DNA from: Prevotella sp.
GTDB taxonomy: Bacteria > Bacteroidota > Bacteroidia > Bacteroidales > Bacteroidaceae
Assembly: GCA_017483805.1 (NCBI GenBank)
Contig: JAFUUL010000108.1
Coordinates: 1-39,473, forward strand
DNA length: 39,473 bases
Direction: 5' to 3'
Positions 1-36,180 of the stretch are shown here, in pieces. The notes under the pieces were generated by a model that saw only the letters and a program-made list of their open reading frames with translations, did no database searches and had not been told where the DNA came from. The stretch's first letter is position 1; the number at the start of each line of letters is the position of its first letter. The position numbers and the translations under genes were made by a program.

Positions 1-53
1 AGAAATTGATGCCAGGTCTTTTCGTAACGGGCATCGGCTGTCAGTAATTCCAT
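1..53 (-). CDS. Start of an unidentified protein (partial, runs off the window)
   Basis: Only the first 17 codons are present, reading MELLTADARYEKTWHQF from an ATG at 53. The call rests on a consensus promoter at 86-93 placed 32 bp upstream of this ATG. Too little sequence is left to name a family. It is divergent from the PfkB-like gene starting at 231, so the 54-230 interval is a shared regulatory region. Confidence 0.5.
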   Translation of the reverse strand, partial: MELLTADARYEKTWHQF

Positions 54-85
54 TATTTGCACAATCTGTCTATAAAGTGAATGCA

Positions 86-93
86 CAAAGGTA
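86..93 (-). promoter_or_regulatory. Bacteroidetes -7 promoter element (TACCTTTG) of the partial minus-strand gene
   Basis: On the minus strand this reads TACCTTTG, an exact TAnnTTTG match. Transcription would start near 80 and leave a leader of roughly 25-30 nt before the ATG at 53. Confidence 0.6.
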
Positions 94-135
94 ATCACTC
101 TTTAGATTGTATGCAATATGTAAAAGCGGATACGC

Positions 136-165
136 TTACGTAAACAACGCAAATACGGTGGCAAA
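136..165 (+). promoter_or_regulatory. Candidate LytTR-type operator between divergent promoters
   Basis: GGTGGCAAA at 157-165 is identical to a 9-mer at 1108-1116 in front of the two-component operon. It lies 39 bp before the -7 element at 205, against 38 bp at the other site. A weak second half-site, TTACGTAAA at 136-144, sits 12 bp upstream. Nine-base direct repeats with a 12-base gap are the layout known for LytTR regulators such as AgrA. Assigning the site to the nearby response regulator is inference. Confidence 0.35.
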
Positions 166-204
166 CAACGATGGGCATAGTGACCGTGTATGGAAATAAT
201 GTCG

Positions 205-212
205 TATCTTTG
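205..212 (+). promoter_or_regulatory. Bacteroidetes -7 promoter element (TATCTTTG) of the PfkB-like gene
   Basis: Exact TAnnTTTG match 18 bp before the ATG at 231. It excludes the longer in-frame start at 171, which would lie upstream of the promoter. Confidence 0.65.
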
Positions 213-230
213 CACCCAAACAATCTGGGT

Positions 231-854
231 ATGGAAGATAGGGTAGTTATGGTTGCTCACAAGCAGTCGGCCTTTGCACGGCATATCAACTTGCTGGGGT
301 TTGCCCTGAAAGAGATAAAAGAGTCTGCCAAGAAAGATAACAGGTGGGCAGCCGTTTATTGGGACCAGGCTTCGATGAGCGATTTTGTTGAAAGAAACAA
401 AATTGTCAATCATTTGTTGAATACACCTGTCGGATGTACCCAGATCTTGGACTTCAACATAAACGGGATTGGCACAACAAAGGAGCGCCTCATCAGAGAA
501 TCCTTGACCTACTGTGACCTGCTGAGAATAGGGAAAGAGGAACTGTCGGCACTCTGCCACCTTCTGGGAATCGAGACCAACAGTTTGTTTGACAGTTGCT
601 TTGAACTGATGGCCAGGTTCAGCATTAAGACACTCATTGTCAGCCACGGCAACTTTGGAAGCCATGTCTTCCATGGTAATGCCGTTTCAGAGAAATGGGG
701 ACATCTCTCTTTCGGCGCGTGCTCAAAAGAAGAGGCAGAGGGAGCCTTTCTGGCTGCCTATTTTGCCGCTTCACAAGGATCGGAAAGTGTTTTCACCGAT
801 TACCACAAACAGGCACTGGAATACCTAAAGCGTGTCTGTAGACCTCAATGTTAA
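231..854 (+). CDS. Truncated PfkB-family (fructokinase-like) protein lacking the catalytic motif
   Basis: This 207-residue protein resembles the C-terminal two thirds of Bacteroidetes PfkB fructokinases, which are usually about 290-300 residues. Residues 72-113 (ILDFNIN, then SLTYCDLLRIGKEELSALCH) match the family's segment normally reading 'IFDINLR' and 'SL..CNVLKINDEEL'. The N-terminal sugar-binding half, including the conserved GG motif, is absent. The C-terminal signature, normally DTVGAGDSFTAAF with the catalytic Asp, has become SFGACSKEEAEGAF at 160-173, so the general base and anion hole are lost. The start at 231 is chosen because a consensus promoter lies just upstream. It may be a regulatory or scaffolding relative, or a decaying gene. 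The frame is intact. Family membership is fairly sure; loss of kinase activity is inferred. Confidence 0.65.
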   Translation: MEDRVVMVAHKQSAFARHINLLGFALKEIKESAKKDNRWAAVYWDQASMSDFVERNKIVNHLLNTPVGCTQILDFNINGIGTTKERLIRESLTYCDLLRIGKEELSALCHLLGIETNSLFDSCFELMARFSIKTLIVSHGNFGSHVFHGNAVSEKWGHLSFGACSKEEAEGAFLAAYFAASQGSESVFTDYHKQALEYLKRVCRPQC

Positions 855-893
855 TGTTATCCTGACAACAACCTGATTACCTCATGCAAGGCT

Positions 894-928
894 GCTAACT
901 ACTAAGATTTACTAATCACTAACTACTA
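894..928 (+). repeat. Short tandem repeat with 7-bp periodicity (CTAA motif)
   Basis: CTAA recurs five times with offsets of 7, 10, 7 and 7 bp (CTAACTA, CTAAGAT, then CTAATCA, CTAACTA, CTAACTT). It lies about 40 bp after the PfkB-like stop codon. The heptamer period is shared with three other loci in the window. Confidence 0.5.
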
Positions 929-1086
929 ACTTGACATATCTTAACGTCTTTGTGTAAGGCTTTGTGAGTGCAAAGATAATGCAATTTCGGATGGCAAGAG
1001 CGTCCACACTTTCTTTTATCGACTTTTGAAATACGCAAACGATTTCTCCTGCAATACCATTGTTTGCACGACAAAAAGCCCCATTT

Positions 1087-1116
1087 GGCGGCAAACGGAC
1101 ACAAAAAGGTGGCAAA
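1087..1116 (+). promoter_or_regulatory. Candidate LytTR operator: GGYGGCAAA direct repeat, 12-bp gap
   Basis: GGCGGCAAA (1087-1095) and GGTGGCAAA (1108-1116) are separated by exactly 12 bp, giving a 21-bp period, and end 38 bp before the -7 element of the kinase gene. This matches the known architecture of LytTR response-regulator sites and suggests autoregulation of the kinase/regulator operon. Confidence 0.5.
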
Positions 1117-1154
1117 TGCTCACCGCGAACCGATGTTTTTCACTTTTTTTTGCT

Positions 1155-1162
1155 TACCTTTG
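1155..1162 (+). promoter_or_regulatory. Bacteroidetes -7 promoter element (TACCTTTG) of the LytS-type kinase
   Basis: Exact TAnnTTTG match only 6 bp before the ATG at 1169, so the mRNA would be leaderless or nearly so from that start. An in-frame ATG at 1178 would give a leader of about 10 nt. Confidence 0.65.
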
Positions 1163-1168
1163 CAGCAG

Positions 1169-2191
1169 ATGAACAGGATGCAGAGACACATTGACTGGGG
1201 GGGCTGTCTGGTGATGATCCCATTGATGACCTTCATTTTCCCCGTTGGCCGGTGGGTACATGAAAGGCCGTCGTACACAGTTCTGCTCGTCGGGTTCGTG
1301 TATCTGACTTATTTTCTTGTCCGCAAATTCATCATGCCGTTGTTTTTCCAAGGCCAACGCATGCGGGGCCTTTCGCTTCTGATTTTCCTCGGTTTACTGG
1401 CCGGCTTGTTCGCACTGACTTTTTACCACGAAGGGTGGCCGTTTTACCATCTGGCGCAGATTTATCCCAATGTAGAACTGGCAAAGGTGCAGATGAGCCA
1501 GCAGCGCATCTGGCTGGCATTCATGACGATAGTTCTGTTTGGAGCCGTCATCGGACTGCATGAGGAAGTCATCCGCCAAAGCCTGCATAGGCAGGCCATA
1601 CAGCATGAGCGCGACCATGCGGCACTGGCCATGTACAGGGCACAACTGAACCCGCATTTCCTATACAATACGCTCAACTCGCTGTACGGGCTCATCGTTA
1701 CCCACAACGACCGCGCCGAACAGGCCTTTGTGCAGTTTACCGAACTGACTCGCATGATGACCGCATATTCAGGAAAGGACAGCATTGCCATAGAACAGTC
1801 GCAGCAGTTTCTGCGCGACTATATCGCCTTGCAGCAACTGCGCCTGAAACCAGAAATCAGTGTCTCGTTCGCCTACTGCAGCGATGCCCCTGAGGCACGG
1901 ATTGCCCCTATGATACTCTTCACGTTTGTTGAGAATGCACTGAAACACGGTACGCAGGGCATTTCCTCCGGCCAGATTATCTTCCGACTGGAAGTTGCCA
2001 AAGGGGTGCTGACCTTCGTGGCCGAGAACCCGATGGGCATGGCACCCAAAGAAAAAACCTGCGGCACGGGGCTAGCCAACTGCCGCAAACGCCTTGCACT
2101 GCTCTATCCAAACCGCTATACACTAAACATCTCACACGACAATGGACACTACCTTGTTCATCTGACCATTCAACTATCAGAACCAACATGA
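1169..2191 (+). CDS. LytS/YesM-type membrane sensor histidine kinase
   Basis: The 340-residue protein has four predicted membrane segments in its first 130 residues (about 14-30, 37-53, 67-84 and 114-130). A His_kinase domain of the LytS/YesM class follows. The phospho-acceptor is His163 in QLNPHFLYNTLNSL, the N box is ENALKHG (255-261) and the glycine box is CGTGLANCRKRL (298-309). There is no separate periplasmic sensor domain, so the stimulus is probably sensed in or at the membrane. It should phosphorylate the LytTR regulator whose ATG overlaps its stop codon (ATGA, 2188-2191). The start at 1169 is preferred because upstream in-frame starts precede the promoter; 1178 is possible. The ligand is unknown. 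Confidence 0.88.
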   Translation: MNRMQRHIDWGGCLVMIPLMTFIFPVGRWVHERPSYTVLLVGFVYLTYFLVRKFIMPLFFQGQRMRGLSLLIFLGLLAGLFALTFYHEGWPFYHLAQIYPNVELAKVQMSQQRIWLAFMTIVLFGAVIGLHEEVIRQSLHRQAIQHERDHAALAMYRAQLNPHFLYNTLNSLYGLIVTHNDRAEQAFVQFTELTRMMTAYSGKDSIAIEQSQQFLRDYIALQQLRLKPEISVSFAYCSDAPEARIAPMILFTFVENALKHGTQGISSGQIIFRLEVAKGVLTFVAENPMGMAPKEKTCGTGLANCRKRLALLYPNRYTLNISHDNGHYLVHLTIQLSEPT

Positions 2192-2859
2192 AAGCAATTG
2201 CCATAGACGATGAGCCTATTGCGCTCAGCATTATTAAAGAATTCACGGGGCGACTGGGCAATATCCAACTGCAGACCTTCACCAACCCTGCTGCCGGAAT
2301 GGCTGCCGTCACAGAGCAACAGCCCGACTTGTTGCTGCTCGACATCCGGCTGGGCACGGCCGATGGTGTCTCGCTGGCCCGCCGACTGCCTGCTACCACC
2401 AGCCTCATCTTTACAACGGCCTACACAGAATATGCCCTTGACGGCTTCGAGGTGGGGGCTGTCGACTACCTGCACAAGCCTTTCTCGTTTGAGCGCTTCA
2501 GGAGCGCCATCACGAGGGTACGGGAGCGACACCCCGTACCGTCCTGCATCACCCTGAAGGCTGACTATAAGAATGTGATCATCCCCTTGGCCGACATCCT
2601 TTATATCGAGGCAATGGACAACTATGTGCGGATACATCTTACCGGCAATCGCCATCAGATGTCGAAGACCACGCTGACCTCACTGCTCGCCCTGCTGCCT
2701 CCTCAGCAGTTCATCCGCATTCACAAGTCATTTGTCGTATCGGTCGCTCAGATTGACAGTTTCACCCATCAACGGGTCTTCATCAAAAACATAGAAAGAC
2801 CCCTGCCCGTCGGACGCAATTTTACCGATGGAATCAGACAATTAAACAAAGAAGAATAA
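2188..2859 (+). CDS. LytTR-family response regulator
   Basis: A 223-residue AlgR/AgrA/LytR-type regulator. The receiver domain (about 1-115) has the acidic pair Asp7-Asp8, the phospho-acceptor Asp52 in LLLLDIRL and the conserved Lys97 in YLHKPFS. The LytTR DNA-binding domain (about 118-220) starts at ITLKADYKNVIIPLADILYI and contains the typical FIRIHKSFVV stretch. It overlaps the kinase gene by 4 bp, so the two are translationally coupled. The 9-bp direct repeats upstream of the kinase are a plausible binding site. The gene ends 21 bp from the convergent argB stop. Confidence 0.92.
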   Translation: MKAIAIDDEPIALSIIKEFTGRLGNIQLQTFTNPAAGMAAVTEQQPDLLLLDIRLGTADGVSLARRLPATTSLIFTTAYTEYALDGFEVGAVDYLHKPFSFERFRSAITRVRERHPVPSCITLKADYKNVIIPLADILYIEAMDNYVRIHLTGNRHQMSKTTLTSLLALLPPQQFIRIHKSFVVSVAQIDSFTHQRVFIKNIERPLPVGRNFTDGIRQLNKEE

Positions 2860-2880
2860 ACAAGAGTATACGCCAGGCCA

Positions 2881-3669
2881 TCAGCAGATGACGGTGCCGT
2901 GGCGACCGTCGATGGCGGTGGCACTGGTGATGATGACGCGGCTGACGCCAGCATCGATGGCGGCGAGGGCATTCTCAACCTTGGGCAGCATGCCGCCGCT
3001 GATGGTGCCGTCGGCACGAAAACGCAGGAAGTCCTGACGGGTGATGGTGGGGATGACGCTGGCATCATCGTCGGCATCGCGCAGCACGCCGGGCTTCTCG
3101 AACGCGAAGATGAGGGTCACGTCGTAGAGGCCAGCCAGGGCCTTGGCGGTCTCGCTGGCCATGGTGTCGGCATTGGTGTTGAGCATATGGCCCTGACCGT
3201 CGTGGGTCAGCGGGGCGATGACGGGCACGATGTTTTGTTCGATGAAACCGGCCAATTTTGCACCGTCGGCTTTGTCTACATCGCCCACCCAACCGAAGTC
3301 TACGCCGTCCTTCAGGGGACGCTTGTGGGAACGGATGATGTCGGCATCGGCACCGGTCAGTCCGAGGGCGTTGATGCCGCAGGCCTGCAGACGGGCGACG
3401 AGGTTCTTGTTGACCAGTCCGCCGTAGACCATCGTGACGACTTCGAGCATGGCGCTGTCGGTGATGCGGCGTCCGCCCACCATCTGTGTCTCGATGCCCA
3501 GCGATGCGGCCACCCGGGTGGCGCGCCGGCCTCCGCCGTGCACCAGTATCTTCGGGCCCTCGATGGCGGAGAAGTCACGGAGCAACTGCGTGAGTTGTGC
3601 CTCGTCCTCGACGACGGCACCGCCCACCTTGACGATGGTGAGTCCCTTATTCCAAATAGGTGTATCCAT
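2881..3669 (-). CDS. argB: Acetylglutamate kinase (arginine biosynthesis)
   Basis: ArgB phosphorylates N-acetylglutamate in the second step of arginine synthesis. From the ATG at 3669 it has 262 residues, a normal length. Visible amino-acid-kinase features are the Lys-Gly-Gly nucleotide-binding start (TIVKVGGAVV), the loop ILVHGGGRRAT, NTNADTMASETAKAL for substrate binding, and GGMLPKVENALAAIDAG near the C-terminus. A GTG at 3678 would add three residues but overlaps speA further. The ATG already overlaps the end of speA by 23 bp, which implies coupling. It is the last gene of topA-aroK-speA-argB and links arginine supply to the arginine decarboxylase upstream. Confidence 0.9.
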   Translation of the reverse strand: MDTPIWNKGLTIVKVGGAVVEDEAQLTQLLRDFSAIEGPKILVHGGGRRATRVAASLGIETQMVGGRRITDSAMLEVVTMVYGGLVNKNLVARLQACGINALGLTGADADIIRSHKRPLKDGVDFGWVGDVDKADGAKLAGFIEQNIVPVIAPLTHDGQGHMLNTNADTMASETAKALAGLYDVTLIFAFEKPGVLRDADDDASVIPTITRQDFLRFRADGTISGGMLPKVENALAAIDAGVSRVIITSATAIDGRHGTVIC

Positions 3670-5539
3670 AAAGTCCACTTCTGTAATTACTCAAAAACTC
3701 CTTGCCTTCCTCCAGGGTGATCTTGCCGGCCTTGACACTCTTGGTGACCCACACCTCGAGTTGGCGCACCAGTTTCTTGGGGTCGTACTGCACGTAGTCG
3801 AGCACCTCGGCCACGGTCTCGCCGTCGAAGATTTGGTCGATGTGGTAGTGACCGTCCTTGACGCTGATGTGGACGGCGGTGGTGTCGCCGAAGAGGTTGT
3901 GCATGTCGCCCAAAATCTCCTGATAGGCTCCCACGAGGAAGACGCCCAGATAGTAGTCCTCGTTCTTGCGGAGGGCATGCACGGGCAGCGAGTGGGAGTT
4001 GTGGCGGTTGGTGACGAAGGAGGCTATCTTGCCGTCGCTGTCGCAGGTGATGTCCTGGATGGTGGCATTGCGGGTGGGCCGCTCGTCGAGGCGCTGGATG
4101 GGCATGATCGGAAATATCTGGTCGATGGCCCACGAGTCGGGCAGCGACTGGAAGAGCGAGAAGTTGCAGAAGTACTTGTCGGCCAGCAGTTTGTCGATAT
4201 TCATCAGTTCCTCGGGGATGTGCTTCAGGTTCTTGGCCAGGGCGTTGATCTCATGGCAGACACTCCAGTACATGGCCTCAATCTCGGCGCGCGTCTTCAG
4301 GTCTACGATGCCGTGGCTGAAGAGGTCGAGCACCTCTTCGCGGATCTGCTCGGCGTCGTGCCAATCCTCCAGCACGTTGCGGGGCGAAAGGTTATCCCAG
4401 ATTTCGTAGAGGTCCTTCACCAACTGATGGGAGTTCTCGTCGGGCTCAAACTCCTCGGGCATCTCGGGCAGCGAGGCCGTCTCGAGCACGTCGATGACAA
4501 GCACGGAGTGGTGGGCATCCAGCGAGCGTCCGCTCTCGGTGATGATGTTGGGATGGGGGATGCCGTTCTTGTTGGCAGCATCGACGAAGGTGTAGATGCA
4601 GTCGTTGACATACTCCTGAATGCTATAGTGGACCGACGACTCGCTGCTGGGCGAGCGGGTGCCGTCGTAGTCGACGCCCAGTCCGCCGCCACAGTCGACG
4701 AAGTCGACGTTGTAGCCCATCTTGTGCAGTTGGATGTAGAACTGCGAAGCCTCGCGCAGGGCGGTCTGTATGCGGCGTATCTTGGTGATCTGCGAGCCGA
4801 TGTGGAAATGGATGAGGCGCAGACAGTCGCGCATGTCCTTCTTGTCGAGCAGTTCGAGGGCTTCGAGCAGTTCGGCACTGGTGAGTCCGAACTTCGAGGC
4901 GTCGCCGCCGCTCTCCTCCCACTTGCCGCTGCCGCTGGAGGCCAGTTTGATGCGGATGCCGATGTTGGGGCGTACACCCAGTTTCTTGGCCTCGCGGGCA
5001 ATGAGGTCCAGTTCGTTCAGTTTCTCCACGACGATGAATATCTGCTTGCCCATCTTCTGTGCCAGCAGGGCCAGTTCGATGTAGCCCTGGTCCTTGTAGC
5101 CGTTGCACACAATGATGGAGTCGCTCTGGCACTGCACGGCGATGACGGCGTGCAGTTCGGGCTTCGAGCCGGCCTCGACGCCGAGGTTGAACTTGCGGCC
5201 GTGCGAGATGATCTCCTCTACCACGGGCTGCATCTGGTTCACCTTGATGGGGTAGACCACGTAGTTCTCGCCCCGGTAGTCATACTCCTGGGCCGCCTTC
5301 TTGAAGCAACTCCAGGTCTTCTCGATGCGGTTGTCCAGAATGTCGGGGAAGCGCAGCAGCACGGGCGGCGTGACGTCGCGCAGCGACAGTTCGTCCATCA
5401 CTTCGCGCAGGTCGATCTGCGTCTGGTCCTTGCAGGGTGTCACGTAGACATTGCCGGCGTCGTTGATGCCGAAATAACTGGTGCCCCAACCGTTGATGTT
5501 ATACAGTTCACGGGCGTCGTCAATGGTCCATTTCTTCAT
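3647..5539 (-). CDS. speA: Biosynthetic arginine decarboxylase
   Basis: SpeA converts arginine to agmatine with PLP and Mg2+, opening the agmatine route to polyamines. The 630-residue protein is of normal family length. The PLP-binding lysine is Lys99 in VVYPIKVNQMQPVVEE. The fold-III substrate region includes HFHIGSQ and VDCGGGLGVDYDG, and the C-terminal region contains the conserved CHEINALAKNL and EELMNIDKLLADKYFCNFS. The ATG at 5539 is shared with the aroK stop codon (ATGA), so this start is firm although the frame stays open further upstream. It overlaps argB at its 3' end. Confidence 0.95.
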   Translation of the reverse strand: MKKWTIDDARELYNINGWGTSYFGINDAGNVYVTPCKDQTQIDLREVMDELSLRDVTPPVLLRFPDILDNRIEKTWSCFKKAAQEYDYRGENYVVYPIKVNQMQPVVEEIISHGRKFNLGVEAGSKPELHAVIAVQCQSDSIIVCNGYKDQGYIELALLAQKMGKQIFIVVEKLNELDLIAREAKKLGVRPNIGIRIKLASSGSGKWEESGGDASKFGLTSAELLEALELLDKKDMRDCLRLIHFHIGSQITKIRRIQTALREASQFYIQLHKMGYNVDFVDCGGGLGVDYDGTRSPSSESSVHYSIQEYVNDCIYTFVDAANKNGIPHPNIITESGRSLDAHHSVLVIDVLETASLPEMPEEFEPDENSHQLVKDLYEIWDNLSPRNVLEDWHDAEQIREEVLDLFSHGIVDLKTRAEIEAMYWSVCHEINALAKNLKHIPEELMNIDKLLADKYFCNFSLFQSLPDSWAIDQIFPIMPIQRLDERPTRNATIQDITCDSDGKIASFVTNRHNSHSLPVHALRKNEDYYLGVFLVGAYQEILGDMHNLFGDTTAVHISVKDGHYHIDQIFDGETVAEVLDYVQYDPKKLVRQLEVWVTKSVKAGKITLEEGKEFLSNYRSGLYGYTYLE

Positions 5540-6063
5540 AACTTCAGTAGTTCGCGAATCTTTTCTATGGTTATCTTGATTTTCTCGTAGTTGTCCATCA
5601 GGCTGACATCGAGGGTGTATTGCGCCTTCGAGTAGAAGGGCTCGCGCCGCTCCAGTTGCTCGTGTATGAAGGCGATGAGTTCGTCGGGCGTCTTGCCCTT
5701 CAGCAGGGGGCGCTCGGTCTTGCCCATCAGCAGGTGGCGGTAGAGCACCTCGGGCGTGGCCTTGAGGTAGATGACCTGTCCCTGCTGGTTCATGTAGTCG
5801 ATGTTGTCGAAGAAGCAGGGTGTGCCGCCGCCGCAACTGATGATGACATCCTCGAACTCGGCCACCTCGTGCAGCATGTTGTACTCTATCTTGCGGAAGG
5901 CCTCTTCGCCTTGCTCGGCAAAGAGTTGGGCCACCGTCTTGCGCCGCCGGCTCTCAATGTACCAGTCGAGGTCGTAGAAGGGGATGCCCAGTTCCTTCGA
6001 CAGGGCCTTGCCGACGGTGGTCTTGCCGGCTCCCATGTAGCCTATCAGGATGATGCGCTGCAT
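5536..6063 (-). CDS. aroK: Shikimate kinase
   Basis: A 175-residue shikimate kinase, which phosphorylates shikimate in the chorismate pathway. The P-loop is GYMGAGKTT at residues 8-16. The shikimate-binding residues are visible as DLDWYIE (31-37), FRKIE (56-60) and the CGGGTP loop (77-82). The LID region carries KTERPLLKG. It starts 12 bp after the topA stop and its stop overlaps the speA start by 4 bp, so it is embedded in the same transcript. Confidence 0.95.
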   Translation of the reverse strand: MQRIILIGYMGAGKTTVGKALSKELGIPFYDLDWYIESRRRKTVAQLFAEQGEEAFRKIEYNMLHEVAEFEDVIISCGGGTPCFFDNIDYMNQQGQVIYLKATPEVLYRHLLMGKTERPLLKGKTPDELIAFIHEQLERREPFYSKAQYTLDVSLMDNYEKIKITIEKIRELLKL

Positions 6064-6075
6064 AACTCTCTCTCC

Positions 6076-8408
6076 CTATTTCTTCTGCTTCTCGATGACG
6101 GCCATGCACTCGTCGTAGGTCAGGTCCTTGGCTTTGTCGTGCATCGACTTGGGCAGGCGGTAGTTCTGTCCGTCGTAGGCCAGATAGGGGCCATAGCGAC
6201 CGTTGAGCACCTCCAGTTTGGCATCCTCGCCGAAGGTCTTCAGGTGCTTCTGCGACTCCTGCTTGCGCTTCTCCTCGATGAGTCTCACGGCATCGGCGAT
6301 GCTGATGCTCATGGGGTCGGTGCCCTTGGGCAGCGAGGTGTAGAGTTTCTTGTGGAGCACGTAGGGGCCGAAGCGGCCGGCACCCACGGTGACAGGCTCG
6401 CCCTCGTATTCGCCCAGCATGCGGGGCAGTTTGAAGAGGTCGAGGGCCTGCTCCAGCGTGATGGTCTCCAGGCTGAGTTCCTTGGGCATGTGGGCAAACT
6501 GAGGTTTGTCCTTGTCCTCGGCTGTGCCTATCTGCACCACGGGGCCGAAACGTCCAATCTTCACGAAGACGGGCTTCCGGGTCTTCGGGTCGATGCCCAA
6601 CTGACGCTCGCCGGCCTTGTGCTCCGAACGGGCGTTGAGCGTGGCTTCGACGGTAGGCTCGAAGTCCTTGTAGAATCCCTTCATCATCTTGTTCCACTGC
6701 TGCTTGCCCTCGGCAATCTTATCGAAGTCCTGCTCCACCTTGGCAGTGAAGTTGTAGTCCATGATACTGGGGAAATGCTCCATCAGGAAGTCGTTGACCA
6801 CGATGCCGATGTCGGTGGGCAACAGTTTGCCCTTGTCGCTGCCAATGGTCTCGGTGCGATATTTCTGGGTGACCTGCTTTCCCTTCAGGGTGATGACCAG
6901 GAACTTGTGCTCCTCACCCTTCTTGTCGCCCTTCACTACATACTCGCGCTGCTGAATGGTAGAGATGGTGGGGGCGTAGGTGGAGGGTCGGCCGATGCCC
7001 AGTTCCTCCAACTTATGGACGAGCGAGGCCTCGGTGTAGCGCTGCGGGCCCTGGCTGGTGCGCTCGATGGCAGAAATCTCACGGCGTGTCAGTTCCTGTC
7101 CCTTCTTCAGCGGGGGCAGCACGTGGATGAACTCGTCGCGGCTCTCCTCTTCGTCATCCACCGACTCGCGATAGACTTTCAGGAAGCCGTCGAACTTGAC
7201 CACCTCGCCCTGGGCGATAAATTGAAGATTGAAGATTGAAGATTGGCGTCCGTCAAGTTGTCTTCAATCTTAATGACTGCCGTCGTCTTCTCTATCTCGG
7301 CATCGGCCATCTGCGAGGCGGCGGTGCGCTTCCAGATGAGTTCGTAGAGGCGCTTCTCCTGCGACGTGCCGTCGATGGTGGTATTCTCCATGTAGGTGGG
7401 ACGGATGGCCTCATGGGCCTCCTGTGCTCCCTTGCTGCTGGTGTGATACTGGCGCACCTTGCTGTACTCGGCACCATAAAGGCGGGTGATCTCCTCCTTG
7501 GAGGCATTGATGCAGAGGCCCGACAGGTTGACCGAGTCGGTACGCATGTAGGTGATCAGACCGTTCTCATACAGATGCTGTGCCACCATCATGGTCTGGG
7601 TGACGGTGAAGCCCAGTTTGCGGGCCGCCTCCTGCTGCAAGGTCGACGTGGTGAAGGGGGGCGCTGGCGTGCGCTTCAGCGGTTTTTTCTGGATGGACTC
7701 CACGGTGAAGGTGCTCTCCTTGCACTGCTCGAGGAACTGCTCTACCTCCTGCTCCGTCTTGAAGCGGGTGCTCAGCGTGGCCTTCACCTCCGACTGAGAG
7801 CCGTCGGCATTGGTGATGCCAAAGACGCCGTTGACGCTATAGTAGGTCTCGCTCTGGAAGCCCTGTATCTCGCGCTCGCGTTCCACAATTAATCTGACGG
7901 CCACGCTCTGCACACGTCCTGCCGACAGGGCGGGCTTCACCTTGCGCCACAGCACGGGCGAGAGTTTGAAGCCTACCAGGCGGTCGAGCACGCGGCGGGC
8001 CTGCTGGGCGTTCACCAGATTCATGTCCAGTGTACGCGGATGCTCGATGGCCGCCAGGATGGCCGGCTTGGTGATTTCGTGGAACACGATGCGCTTGGTC
8101 TTCTGTTCGTCCAGTCCCAGCACCTCGCACAGGTGCCATGAGATGGCTTCTCCCTCGCGGTCCTCATCGGATGCGAGCCACACCTGACCGGCTTTCTGGG
8201 CCTGGCTGCGCAGGTCGCTCACCAGTTTCTTCTTCTCCTCCGGAATCTCGTATTCGGGTTCCAGAGTCTTGTCGTCGATACTCAATTCACGCTTCTTCAG
8301 GTCGCGGATATGCCCGTAACTGGACATTACCTTATAGTCGGCACCAAGGAACTTCTCAATGGTCTTGGCCTTGGCAGGCGACTCCACGATGACTAAATTC
8401 TTCTGCAT
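6076..8408 (-). pseudogene. topA: DNA topoisomerase I, reading frame shifted within a 7-bp tandem repeat
   Basis: TopA relaxes negative supercoils. The first half (8408 to 7179) contains the Toprim motif (LVIVESPAKAKTIEKFLG, and DEDREGE) and the active-site tyrosine in ITYMRTDS. The second half (readable from 7203 to 6076) continues with VKFDGFLKVYRES, RPSTYAPTISTIQQREYV and two C-terminal Topoisom_C repeats (GRFGPVVQIG; GRYGPYLAYDG). The halves are in different frames. The break lies in three copies of AATCTTC (minus strand, 7221-7241). Removing two copies, or adding one, joins KIEDNLTDANLQ to FIAQGEVVKFDGF in frame and gives a normal length of about 773-780 residues. The frame-1 product ends at 7179 after 409 residues. 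A GTG at 7203 could restart translation of the rest. Start chosen at MQKNLVIVES, 48 bp below a consensus promoter. Confidence 0.85.
7221..7245 (-). repeat. Heptamer tandem repeat inside topA (ATTGAAG, 3.6 copies)
   Basis: Plus-strand ATTGAAG occurs at 7221-7227, 7228-7234 and 7235-7241, followed by a partial ATTG. An 11-bp inverted copy (TCTTCAATCTT, 7261-7271) lies 18 bp away and pairs with 7232-7242, or with 7225-7235 in another register. The unit is not a multiple of 3, so gain or loss of units changes the topA frame. Confidence 0.9.
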
Positions 8409-17561: not shown

Positions 17562-18155
17562 ATGTCAGAAGTGAAGAAAATCAAGACAGCCCTCATCTCA
17601 GTGTTCCATAAGGACGGCTTGGATGAGTTGCTGAAGAAACTGAATGAAGAAGGCGTGAAGTTCCTGTCGACGGGAGGTACGCAGAAGTTTATTGAAGAGC
17701 AGGGATATCCCTGCCAGAAGGTGGAAGACGTGACCACCTATCCTTCTATCTTGGGCGGCCGCGTGAAGACGTTGCACCCCAAAGTGTTCGGAGGCATCCT
17801 TGGCCGCCGCGACAATGAGGGCGACCGCGACCAGATGGCCCAGTATGAGATTCCTGAGATTGACCTGGTCATTGTGGATCTCTATCCCTTTGAGCAGACA
17901 GTGGCCAGTGGTGCCTCTGAGGCTGACATCATCGAGAAGATCGACATCGGTGGTATCTCTCTGATTCGCGCCGGAGCCAAGAACTTCAAGGATGTGGTCA
18001 TCGTGCCCTCAAAGGCTGAATACAGCGTGCTGCTCGATATCCTGAACAAGAAGGGCGCACAGACCGACATTGAGGATCGTCGTATGTTTGCTGAGCGTGC
18101 CTTCGGTGTGAGTTCTCACTACGACACGGCCATCCACAGTTGGTTTGCAAAATAA
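17562..18155 (+). CDS. purH: Single-domain IMP cyclohydrolase (PurH N-terminal half only)
   Basis: This 197-residue protein equals the N-terminal MGS-like IMP cyclohydrolase domain of PurH, which closes the purine ring of FAICAR to make IMP. Conserved segments are FLSTGGTQKFIEEQG, LGGRVKTLHPKVFGGIL, DLVIVDLYPFE and IDIGGISLIRAGAKN. The usual bifunctional PurH has about 510-530 residues with a C-terminal AICAR transformylase domain. Here the frame stops at the exact domain border, after HYDTAIHSWFAK, and mreB starts 30 bp later, so that domain is not present downstream. The formyl transfer must be encoded elsewhere or be missing. I use purH for the homologous domain; it is not the bifunctional enzyme. 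It heads the mreBCD-mrdA-rodA cluster. Confidence 0.88.
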   Translation: MSEVKKIKTALISVFHKDGLDELLKKLNEEGVKFLSTGGTQKFIEEQGYPCQKVEDVTTYPSILGGRVKTLHPKVFGGILGRRDNEGDRDQMAQYEIPEIDLVIVDLYPFEQTVASGASEADIIEKIDIGGISLIRAGAKNFKDVVIVPSKAEYSVLLDILNKKGAQTDIEDRRMFAERAFGVSSHYDTAIHSWFAK

Positions 18156-25588: not shown

Positions 25589-26722
25589 TTATTTCTGTAA
25601 TAGCAATACAATCACTTGCAGGGCGAAGTCGAAGAACACGATCTTCGCATTGGCGTTCTGCCCGATGTCGCGGATGGCACGGTTGGCCAGGTCGTAGAGT
25701 TGCAGCACGTTGGCCTCGTTGATGAAGCGGGCGAAGTTGCGGGCAAAGTTCTCCTCCTCCTGCGTCATGTAGCAGAGGTCAGCCTGCTGAAAGTTGTACA
25801 TGAAGTTCTCGCGCACCATCCGGAGGAAGAACTCCAGGAAGCGCTTCTGCTTCTCGCGGCCGAAGGAGGCCATGCTCTCGCTCCATTTACGAATTTCCTT
25901 CACGTTGCGCTGATAGGCCAGTCGCATCAACAGGATGAACAGGTCGAGGAACTGCTCGTTCTCGCTGCCCACCTGCAGGGCCTGCAGGGCTTTCATCCAC
26001 GAGCCGTTGACCATACGGCTGATGCGCCGGGCCGACTCCTCGTCGATACCGCGCCGTTCAACCAGGGCCTGCCGGATGGTCTCGTCGGGCAGTTTCTTCA
26101 CGTCGACGCGCTGCACGCGGCTGCGGATGGTCTCCAGCAGTTTGTCGGGTTCCTGGCATACCATCAGGAAGACGGTCTGCGTGGGAGGTTCCTCGATGAG
26201 TTTCAGCAGTTTGTTGGCGCACTCGATGTTCATGCGCTCCGGCAGCCAGATGATGCTCACCTTGTAGCCGCCCTGACTCGACTTCAGCGACAGTTTCCTG
26301 ACCAGTTCGTCGCTCTCGCCGGCGGTGATGATGGCCTGCTGGTTCTCCGCGCCGATGGCCGTCAGCCACTGGTCGAGCGTGAAGTAGGGCCCCTGCATGA
26401 TCAGTTCGTGCCACTCGCGGGCAAAGTCGTCACTCACGGGCTTATGGTCTGCCCCCATCGACGGCAGTTTGATGGTGGGATAGGTAAAGTGCAGGTCGGG
26501 ATGCTCCAGTTTGCGCAACATGGGCGACTCCTGGTTGTCCGGAAAGACCGAGTTGTCCGGTTTCCTGTCCAGCAGATAGCACCCGAAGGCCACGGCCAGC
26601 GCCAACTTGCCCACGCCCTGCGGTCCGCAGAGCATGATGGCGTGGGGCAGGCGGTCTTCGCTGACCATCTGCACCAGGCGCTGCTGCACCTCCTCCTGTC
26701 CTATCACCTCATTGAACGTCAC
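25589..26722 (-). CDS. holB: DNA polymerase III delta-prime subunit
   Basis: A 377-residue clamp-loader subunit. The N-terminal AAA+ region has GQEEVQQRL and a Walker-A-like GPQGVGKL (33-40). The conserved ECANKLLKLIEEPPTQTVFL marks DnaX/HolB family members, and TIRSRVQRVDVKKLP is the sensor-1/linker stretch. The zinc cysteines of other delta-prime subunits are not seen. The start is a GTG at 26722, directly downstream (9 bp) of the metF stop; the heptamer repeat 26723-26750 abuts it and replaces any normal ribosome-binding site. Confidence 0.88.
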   Translation of the reverse strand: MTFNEVIGQEEVQQRLVQMVSEDRLPHAIMLCGPQGVGKLALAVAFGCYLLDRKPDNSVFPDNQESPMLRKLEHPDLHFTYPTIKLPSMGADHKPVSDDFAREWHELIMQGPYFTLDQWLTAIGAENQQAIITAGESDELVRKLSLKSSQGGYKVSIIWLPERMNIECANKLLKLIEEPPTQTVFLMVCQEPDKLLETIRSRVQRVDVKKLPDETIRQALVERRGIDEESARRISRMVNGSWMKALQALQVGSENEQFLDLFILLMRLAYQRNVKEIRKWSESMASFGREKQKRFLEFFLRMVRENFMYNFQQADLCYMTQEEENFARNFARFINEANVLQLYDLANRAIRDIGQNANAKIVFFDFALQVIVLLLQK

Positions 26723-26750
26723 TCTTAATTCTTAACTCTTAATTCTTAAT
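26723..26750 (-). repeat. Heptamer tandem repeat at the metF/holB junction (TCTTAAT, 4 copies)
   Basis: Plus-strand units TCTTAAT, TCTTAAC, TCTTAAT and TCTTAAT are contiguous. The array encodes the last residues of MetF (LRIKS), contains its stop codon (26732-26734) and ends at the holB GTG. Its unit length matches the repeats in topA, in the TonB receptor gene and after the PfkB-like gene. Confidence 0.9.
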
Positions 26751-27697
26751 TTCTTCACGATTTCCACCACCGACTCTACGGCACCCACCGTATAGAAGTG
26801 GATGTCGTTCACGCCGCGGTCGTAGAGTTCGCGGCACTGCTGCGTCGTCCACTCGATGCCCAGTCGGCGGGCGTCCTCGTCGGTGTGGCATTTCACTATT
26901 TCGCGGGCCAGCGGCTCGGGTATATCACAGTGGAACGTGCGGGGCACCACCGTCAGTTGGCTCAACTTAGCCATCGGCTTGATGCCGGGAATGATGGGGA
27001 TGGTGATGCCCATCTGACGGGCCCGCTCCACAAACGAGAAGTATTTCTCGTTGTCGAAGAACAACTGGGTCACGGCATACTGCGCCCCCAGTTGCTGCTT
27101 TTCCAGCAGATACTGCATGTCGCGCTCCAGGTTGGGGGCCTCCTCGTGCTTCTCCGGATAGCAGGCAACGCCGATGTCGAACCGCGGGCCGGGGTTCTTG
27201 ATGGGCGAGCCGTCGGCAAAGAAGCCCTCGTTGAACCGCTGCACCTGCCGAATCAGATCGGTGGTGTGGGCGTGTCCGCCAGGCGTCGGCTTAAACACGC
27301 GGTCGTCCTTGGCCTTGTCGCCGCGCAGCAGCAACAGGTCGGTGATGCCCAGAAACTGCAGGTCGAGCAGTTCGTACTCGATATCCTCGACGGTGGCTCC
27401 GCTGCAGATGACGTGCGGCTGCACCGTCACCCCGAAGCGCTGCTGGATGGCAGCGGCCACGGCGATAGTGCCCGGACGGCGGCGCACGCGCTGACGCTCA
27501 AAGCGTCCGTCGCCCAGTTCCTGATAGACATACTCACTATGATGAGTGGTGATATTGATGAATGCAGGGTTCAGTTCGCACAACTTCTCAATGTCGCGAA
27601 ACAGCCCTTCCGTGCCCGTCCCTTTCAGCGGGGGCAGCACCTCAAACGAGAACTGATGCTCGTTGCTATTGTCTTTTACTAGTTTTGCTACGGCCAT
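26732..27697 (-). CDS. metF: Methylenetetrahydrofolate reductase
   Basis: MetF reduces 5,10-methylene-THF to 5-methyl-THF for methionine synthesis, using FAD. The 321-residue protein has the TIM-barrel signatures FSFEVLPPLKG, INITTHHSEYVYQ, THDLIRQV-type HTTDLIRQV, GVACYPEKHEEAPN, AVTQLFFDNEKYFSFV and IPIIPGIKPM. The ATG at 27697 is chosen because the promoter element lies at 27707-27714; a longer in-frame start at 27736 would be upstream of it. Its C-terminus is encoded by the heptamer repeat. It is the first gene of metF-holB-ricT-gldH. Confidence 0.94.
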   Translation of the reverse strand: MAVAKLVKDNSNEHQFSFEVLPPLKGTGTEGLFRDIEKLCELNPAFINITTHHSEYVYQELGDGRFERQRVRRRPGTIAVAAAIQQRFGVTVQPHVICSGATVEDIEYELLDLQFLGITDLLLLRGDKAKDDRVFKPTPGGHAHTTDLIRQVQRFNEGFFADGSPIKNPGPRFDIGVACYPEKHEEAPNLERDMQYLLEKQQLGAQYAVTQLFFDNEKYFSFVERARQMGITIPIIPGIKPMAKLSQLTVVPRTFHCDIPEPLAREIVKCHTDEDARRLGIEWTTQQCRELYDRGVNDIHFYTVGAVESVVEIVKKLRIKS

Positions 27698-27897: not shown

Positions 27898-28029
27898 TTC
27901 CAGGCTTCGGAATGTTTTATTCCAAGGCCTGGAACATTTCCTTCCAAGGCCTGGAACAATTTGTTCCAAGGCTTGGAACATTTTATTCCAGGGGGTGGAA
28001 CATTTTGTTCCAAGGCCTGGAACAAACAC
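27898..28029. repeat. Six tandem 22-bp palindromic units (TTCCAAGGCCTGGAACA core)
   Basis: Units start at 27898, 27920, 27942, 27964, 27986 and 28008, each exactly 22 bp. All but the diverged first keep TTCCA, a 5-base centre and TGGAACA. Within units TTCCA pairs with TGGAA; between units GGAACA pairs with the next TGTTCC or a near match. There are no spacers. Confidence 0.92.
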
Positions 28030-35682: not shown

Positions 35683-36180
35683 TTACTTTAGTTCACTCCA
35701 CTTCGGCGGCTCGGCTCCTTGCAGGTGGCGCACAAAGAAATCGTAGCGCTTATGGTCGCCAAAGCGCTCGCCCATCGTGTGCTGTGCCCCGGTGATGACC
35801 AGCAGTTCAAAGTCCTTGCCGGCCTTTTCCAATGCATTCACCACCTGCATGGTTGAGGCGGGGTCCACATTGTCGTCGAGTTCGCCTACAACAAGCATCA
35901 GCGGGCGTTCCAGTTTGTAGGCGTTTTCCACGTTAGAACACGCCACGTAACTGCTGTCGACAGGATAGCCCATCCACTGCTCGTTCCACCAGATTTTGTC
36001 CATGCGGTTGTCGTGACAGCCGCAGGCAGCATAGGCAGCCTTGTAGAAATCGCCGTGCTGCAATACGGCAGTCAAGGCATTCTGTCCACCAGCCGAACAT
36101 CCGTAGATGCCCACGCGGTCGATGTCCATATAGGGATATTTCTCTGCCGCGGCACGAATCCACAGTTTGCGGTCTGGAAA
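35683..36180 (-). pseudogene. C-terminal remnant of an S9 (DPP IV-like) prolyl peptidase
   Basis: Recognisable from [20 protein letters not shown] (36180) to the stop at 35683. It keeps the serine nucleophile in YGCSAGGQN, the Asp region GELDDNVDP and the His in GAQHTMGE. Family members are about 700-800 residues with an N-terminal beta-propeller; only about 165 residues remain. Similarity ends at 36180, and the frame upstream has a stop (TGA) 30-45 bp further without any start. The first ATG inside is at 36129 and would give 148 residues. It lies 7 bp before GH97, so the original promoter of the S9-GH97-GH127 operon may have been lost with the 5' part. Confidence 0.8.

Follow-up and report, generated by a model that had tools for sequence, protein, structure and literature searches.

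Heptamer arrays recur in a loop of Prevotella topA, where three- and four-unit alleles from one assembly differ in reading frame

The stretch of DNA analysed here (the window, 39,473 nucleotides) is the whole of one contig, C46, of a draft Prevotella assembly that comprises 3.63 Mb in 199 contigs and is 91.7% complete and 7.2% contaminated. Its closest topA loci among named genomes belong to Prevotella assemblies, many of which are of ruminant origin according to the assembly titles. On the reverse strand of the window, topA is spread over two reading frames. The N-terminal part (7179..8408) begins with an ATG at 8408 and runs to a stop at 7179-7181, shortly beyond an array of seven-base repeats. 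It comprises the Toprim domain (PF01751) and the beginning of the type IA core (PF01131, profile positions 2-267), matches TopA in the PDB, and carries the motif YMRTDS, which we take to be the TopA active-site motif with the active-site tyrosine. The C-terminal part (6076..7263) lies in another frame, open from 7263 to a stop at 6076-6078, and supplies a further portion of PF01131 (best segment at profile positions 276-381) along with three Toprim_C_rpt stretches. Both halves are open and conserved and together make up the architecture of a single-copy TopA, with Toprim, type IA core and C-terminal repeats. In an alignment with chain 4rul_A of E. coli TopA, the N part reaches position 418 and the C part sets in at 432, which puts the array within a short linking segment of the core, presumably the domain II hairpin. 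Going by its domain content, the N part is unlikely to be functional by itself, without the rest of the core.

The array itself (7221..7245, 25 bases) consists of 3.6 copies of ATTGAAG on the forward strand, or CTTCAAT on the topA coding strand, and is reported by TRF with 100% matches and a score of 50. Full units begin at 7221, 7228 and 7235. A preliminary description of the locus had placed three 7-bp units where the two topA frames part, and this is correct: the frames part inside the array, and the number of units sets the frame of topA. The two open frames overlap across the array by about 80 bases without encountering a stop, because CTTCAAT repeats are stop-free in any frame. Part of the array also serves as one arm of an inverted repeat. 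This arm, AAGATTGAAGA, is present on the forward strand in two overlapping copies (7225-7235 and 7232-7242, spanning 7225..7242), and the opposite arm, the 11-base TCTTCAATCTT, follows on the same strand at 7261..7271, so that the 18 bases of spacing noted previously do separate it from the end of the array arm at 7242. None of 300 letter shuffles equalled the inverted-repeat score of the window loop (p=0.003). The array exceeds chance expectation: period-7 runs of at least 11 matching bases occur 13 times in 254,565 bases of the genome and not once in a Markov control, for which the same bases were resampled once under a first-order model.

Searching the assembly at the DNA level with the junction sequence (40 of 61 candidates scored), we found a second contig, C146 (7,232 bases), which duplicates positions 52..7276 of the window in forward orientation. 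The two contigs differ at two single bases (4518 and 4630) and by one 7-base indel, which falls exactly in the array. C146 has four units, one of them a variant (CTTGAAG), and here topA reads through in frame: the letters of the contig give IKIEDNLTDANLQASIFNLQFIAQGEVVKFDGF uninterrupted, and its junction translates as IKIEDNLTDANLQASIFNLQFIAQGEVVKFDGFLKVY. The expectation that a fourth unit would join the frames is therefore realised in an actual contig, which also supports the attribution of the frame break to the array. C146 stops 31 bases past the array and is without the N-half of topA, which searches of the assembly located on C46 only. Both single-base differences change amino acids in speA (D/A and H/N) and, because of them, C146 may represent a sister strain rather than a sister cell that has switched. 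Whether by strain mixture or by switching, an in-frame allele of four units and an out-of-frame allele of three coexist in one assembly. Given that the intact allele beside it has four units, the three-unit allele is explained more simply by the loss of one. The proposal that the window gained two extra units over a one-copy ancestor finds no support, with four units in the intact allele and an unrelated loop in the closest relative found.

How does this loop look in related genomes? Of 189 topA loci fetched, three (L223, L227 and L238) yielded no junction, their topA matches lying in open frames of 784, 794 and 813 aa. The resulting loop set, which combines two overlapping sets of loci, contains 187 loci including the window and 169 unique loops. 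Part of it is an even draw across the genus, in which 106 of 109 loci gave the loop. Of 120 genus genomes matched for topA, 10 with no or only a partial topA match were left out. When the unique loops are divided by length, a periodicity of seven is significant (p<=0.01) in 17 of the 60 loops of at least 45 bases, window included, and each of the other periods from 4 to 12 in 0-2 of them, these p-values being descriptive as the 300 letter shuffles behind them do not keep codon structure. Among the 109 shorter loops, period 7 is never significant and period 6 is so in 17. The same period-7 signal (p<=0.01) is present in 9 of the 106 loops of the even draw and in none of 135 length-matched control windows from the N-half of topA (27 loci, five windows each). 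Counting strict arrays in 80 named loci gives a similar contrast: the loop has five (in four loci) over 4,977 bases, the remainder of topA has none over 182,220 bases, and the flanks have 19 over 284,870 bases. Most topA loops, however, have no array, and where arrays are present their units, read by eye, differ: TCACTTC in L013/L052, CTCAACT in L048, CCATTGA in L095, ACACCCA in L176, CTCAACC in L018, TCAGGAG in L033, and others besides. At the 3' end of topA in one relative (L065, 2452-2560), inverted heptamer arrays resemble, by eye, a terminator hairpin.

Close relatives can have very different loops. The DNA of the window's sister locus L040 is 96% identical, but its loop, of 48 bases, is unrelated; L013 and L048 have near-identical topA and different units in both arms. 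These contrasts suggest that loops are replaced or regrown fast. On a tree that comprises 93 topA rows and leaves the loop out, assigning an array label to 17 rows (p<=0.05) requires 13 changes, and branches with good support force at least 12 of these. With shuffled labels the mean is 15.7 changes and only 14-18 of 500 shuffles are as low as the observed value, so that the label is weakly clustered on the tree. Outside the genus, 24 of 29 loci from the same family gave a junction; three of these turned out to be of the same genus, and the 21 loops from other genera contain no array (lowest period-7 p=0.173). Nor is topA the sole host gene. In PrmA (ribosomal protein L11 methyltransferase), read in the best 30 of 39 genomes with a match, one loop carries a period-7 array at four of 30 genus loci (L282, L286, L292 and L304), again with units that differ between loci, while period 6 is significant in three of the 30.

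The arrays are likewise not peculiar to topA or to the window genome, as each of the three sampled genomes has heptamer arrays. For the window genome, G000, the sample covers 254,565 bases (the window and 20 further stretches); exact tandem runs with 14 or more matching bases number six at period 7, nine at period 14 and five at period 21, and 0-1 at every other period from 3 to 20. The corresponding counts in 400,000 bases of G117 are five at period 7, two at period 18 and 0-1 at the others from 3 to 21. Allowing for mismatches, we find 19 arrays in G000, seven in G117 and three in G061 (75, 17.5 and 7.5 per Mb). On the pyrimidine-rich strand, the unit contains T.A in 28 of 29 sampled arrays, compared to 38% of random heptamers, and none of the T.A-bearing arrays has TAACTGA as its unit. 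Many arrays appear, by eye, to be intergenic. ATTGAAG repeats spanning 24 bases are seen again on five other contigs of the window genome, and in-frame arrays are also present there inside a GH2 gene (C120) and prmA (C60), where Pfam domains span both. Own-genome DNA searches with 40 candidates scored, out of 105 for prmA and 76 for GH2, returned no duplicate copy of either array, and so no second length. Another member of the same family in the window is a heptamer array with units of the TTAATTC/TTAACTC type, which TRF places at 26721..26751 (forward strand) between two reading frames; matching arrays occur at no fewer than seven further places in the genome, and no duplicate of its flanks was found in an own-genome DNA search (40 of 130 candidates scored). 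Two further features of the window may be recorded here: a tandem array with a 22-base unit in five copies (27898-28025; 66-base higher unit), in a region with no assigned gene, and two reading frames that seem short for the proteins they resemble, presumably a PurH-like protein (17562-18155, 197 aa) and the end of a hydrolase-like protein (35683-36129, 148 aa).

We consider it likely that the window contains a slippage-prone heptamer array, belonging to a recurrent family, in an insertion loop of TopA, that three- and four-unit alleles coexist, and that any switching is a by-product. The frame break, in other words, is probably real and variable. According to this model, heptamer arrays whose pyrimidine-rich strand mostly reads T[CA]ANYYY would repeatedly colonise permissive places in Prevotella genomes, the TopA loop between positions 418 and 432 of 4rul_A being one of them. 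A process common in these genomes would seed and extend 7-base arrays, and loops would tolerate those inserts that keep the frame. From three units upward, strand slippage could then gain or lose whole 7-base units; mismatch repair is inefficient at recognising seven-base loops. As seven is not a multiple of three, a change by one unit would shift the frame and break the gene. The sampled population would thus comprise four-unit, in-frame alleles and three-unit, out-of-frame alleles, of which the window holds the latter. Judged from the contigs, the coexistence of the two alleles would fit what slippage is expected to produce. We infer slippage as the cause of the unit difference and the loss of one unit as its direction; cells with three units would presumably have lost TopA activity, and switching would be a by-product of the repeat process instead of a selected programme.

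Imagine instead that the array is maintained as a selected ON/OFF switch of supercoiling and global expression, that is, as a case of true phase variation. A coding-region array with a unit that is not a multiple of three, the presence of both frames in one assembly, and the recurrence of arrays at the TopA loop would all agree with such a role. No frame shift, however, is present at the loop of any of the 186 other loci, although the search pattern behind 14 of them requires an open frame and could not have shown one, so that frequent switching is not visible across species. Other species with an array at this position are all in frame and most loops are free of arrays. TopA is, moreover, a housekeeping enzyme and not a typical switched gene, and similar arrays in PrmA imply that the TopA loop has not been specially chosen for switching. 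We therefore think that selected phase variation is unlikely. Of the earlier suggestion that topA is a phase-variable locus subject to slippage, what stands is that unit number sets the frame and that two contigs differ by one whole unit; what does not is any trace of it in relatives, which share heptamer arrays at the same loop, built from different units, but are without exception in frame. For a housekeeping gene that is in frame at every other locus read, our preferred reading of a slippage-prone loop is that of a mutational by-product restrained by selection. We note separately that in one genus genome (G111:C32:4103-5193) topA is matched in two pieces that overlap (query residues 1-131 and 145-383), which looks like a frame break at a different site.

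The evidence for two alleles comes from contigs of one assembly, 92% complete and 7% contaminated, and the three-unit contig might simply be wrong, the product of an assembly or consensus error in a population where all cells are in frame. Such an error would sit well with a draft assembly, with the in-frame state of every relative read, and with the fact that loss of TopA is usually harmful. Two observations argue against it. First, at 25 bases the array is shorter than a usual read. Second, the three-unit contig has ATTGAAGATTGGCG where C146 has CTTGAAGATTGGCG. If the former had arisen by simple assembly or k-mer collapse of the four-unit sequence, we would not expect it to possess a junction that C146 does not contain; both halves of topA are, in addition, otherwise open. 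An erroneous contig is thus conceivable but improbable.

Another scenario holds that the loop inserts are mobile palindromic elements, akin to Rickettsia palindromic elements (RPE) or MITEs, with heptamer arms as their ends, rather than products of slippage. Significant inverted repeats are indeed a feature of long loops (eight of 60) more than of short ones (one of 109). Of the eight, six have heptamer arms and two (L017/L055 and L044) are GC-rich palindromes. The L017 topA loop (G062:C46) contains a 20-mer near-palindrome, CCCTCCCTGTGAGGGAGGGG, that is present in 37 copies in G062, 33 in G000 and eight in G117, with no copies of reversed-pattern controls. The exchange of units between sister species with near-identical topA, as in L013/L048 and the window/L040, would also be in line with insertion. 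For the window, however, matches to the junction other than C146 cover the heptamers and not the spacer (40 of 61 candidates scored), units vary between species, and inverted pairing of arrays across the three genomes is not clearly above control, at four of 29 versus two of 29 for one random draw (score 12). Among the candidates scored, the window insert does not behave as an RPE- or MITE-like dispersed element; the core of the G062 insert is the one case that does. We consequently regard mobile elements as quite unlikely to account for the loop inserts at large. As to the 20-mer itself, it often occurs as inverted pairs some 40-90 bases apart, lies on contigs C13, C37, C80, C125, C138, C183 and C196 of G000, and in G062 one such pair lies within the topA loop without breaking the frame, so that topA there contains a MITE-like element.

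Returning to a slippage-prone array, it is tempting to ask whether loss of TopA might itself affect repeats. In E. coli, topA point mutants are mutators that give tandem duplications of 2-19 bp or deletions of 1-7 bp (Bachar et al. 2019, PMC6954433), changes which the available text of that study describes as independent of existing repeats. The likeness to our locus is that impaired TopA is tied to short tandem duplications and short deletions; the difference is that, in the same text, these were point mutants of a laboratory strain without a repeat array inside topA. If loss of TopA acted as these mutations do, at least as they appear in the available portion of the paper (PMC6954433), the array could be a self-referring mutator switch, where the OFF state would raise short duplications and deletions genome-wide and speed up all heptamer arrays including its own. 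Were this true, the switch would hasten change in the very array through which TopA is restored, and might account in part for the wealth of heptamer arrays in this genome. We regard this as very unlikely, and two results lend it no support: arrays near topA show no association with arrays in topA (present at two of 12 loci with a topA array and 12 of 68 without), and G061, which has a large topA insert, ranks lowest among the three sampled genomes in arrays per Mb.

That TopA is made from both frames all the same, whether ribosomes shift frame within the array or two separate halves associate, would be permitted by the stop-free overlap, but split frames are used by no relative read and we view this as highly improbable. 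Least credible of all is a fixed pseudogene whose work is done by another topoisomerase I, such as the type IA protein on contig C80: this match is 30% identical and is probably TopB, no second intact topA, a possibility raised in the preliminary description, was found in searches of the assembly's contigs (40 of 67 candidates scored in the DNA search), both halves are open and conserved, and an in-frame allele coexists.

The slippage-prone loop that we favour bears comparison with several known systems. Simple-sequence contingency loci undergo phase variation by slipped-strand mispairing, and our locus resembles them in having a repeat in the coding region, with a unit that is not a multiple of three and a unit number that determines the on or off frame. 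It is unlike them in that a seven-base unit lies in the middle of a housekeeping gene. Rickettsia palindromic elements and MITEs inside genes are palindromes inserted, with the frame kept, where a gene tolerates them, and palindromic repeat coding elements (PMC2996958) are reportedly in-frame palindromic inserts of genes as well. Heptamer inserts differ in that they have no fixed sequence, a multi-copy palindrome being shown in the G062 insert alone.

The closest parallel is offered by the heptamer direct repeats of the TAACTGA type, described from Beggiatoaceae, Cyanobacteria and some Bacteroidetes (MacGregor 2015, PMC4679880). According to the available text of that paper, they are mostly intergenic, with some inside reading frames, and the mechanism of their spread is not evident; heptameric repeats in general have been little written about, to go by an excerpt of a further paper (PMC4692102). 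Judged against the same available text (PMC4679880), in which the word Prevotella does not occur, the arrays share with TAACTGA repeats that they are dispersed, short, head-to-tail and specific to a period of seven, with T.A in the unit. They differ in having ATTGAAG as the unit here and other units elsewhere, in returning, with the frame kept, to the same internal loops of conserved enzymes across species, and in that one Prevotella array is polymorphic in length with a shift of frame. In the literature searched we found no report of heptamer arrays in Prevotella topA or other Prevotella genes, nor of an in-frame recolonised loop and a frame-switching length polymorphism of topA.

The locus would thus represent a natural case of a repeat whose unit is not a multiple of three inside a core gene of DNA supercoiling, an intact allele being present next to a broken one, in a genus where the same loops of conserved enzymes acquire 7-base arrays again and again. 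As short tandem duplications result from impaired TopA in E. coli, as far as can be taken from the available part of that study (PMC6954433), the de novo origin of tandem repeats may become testable in an organism that is rich in them.
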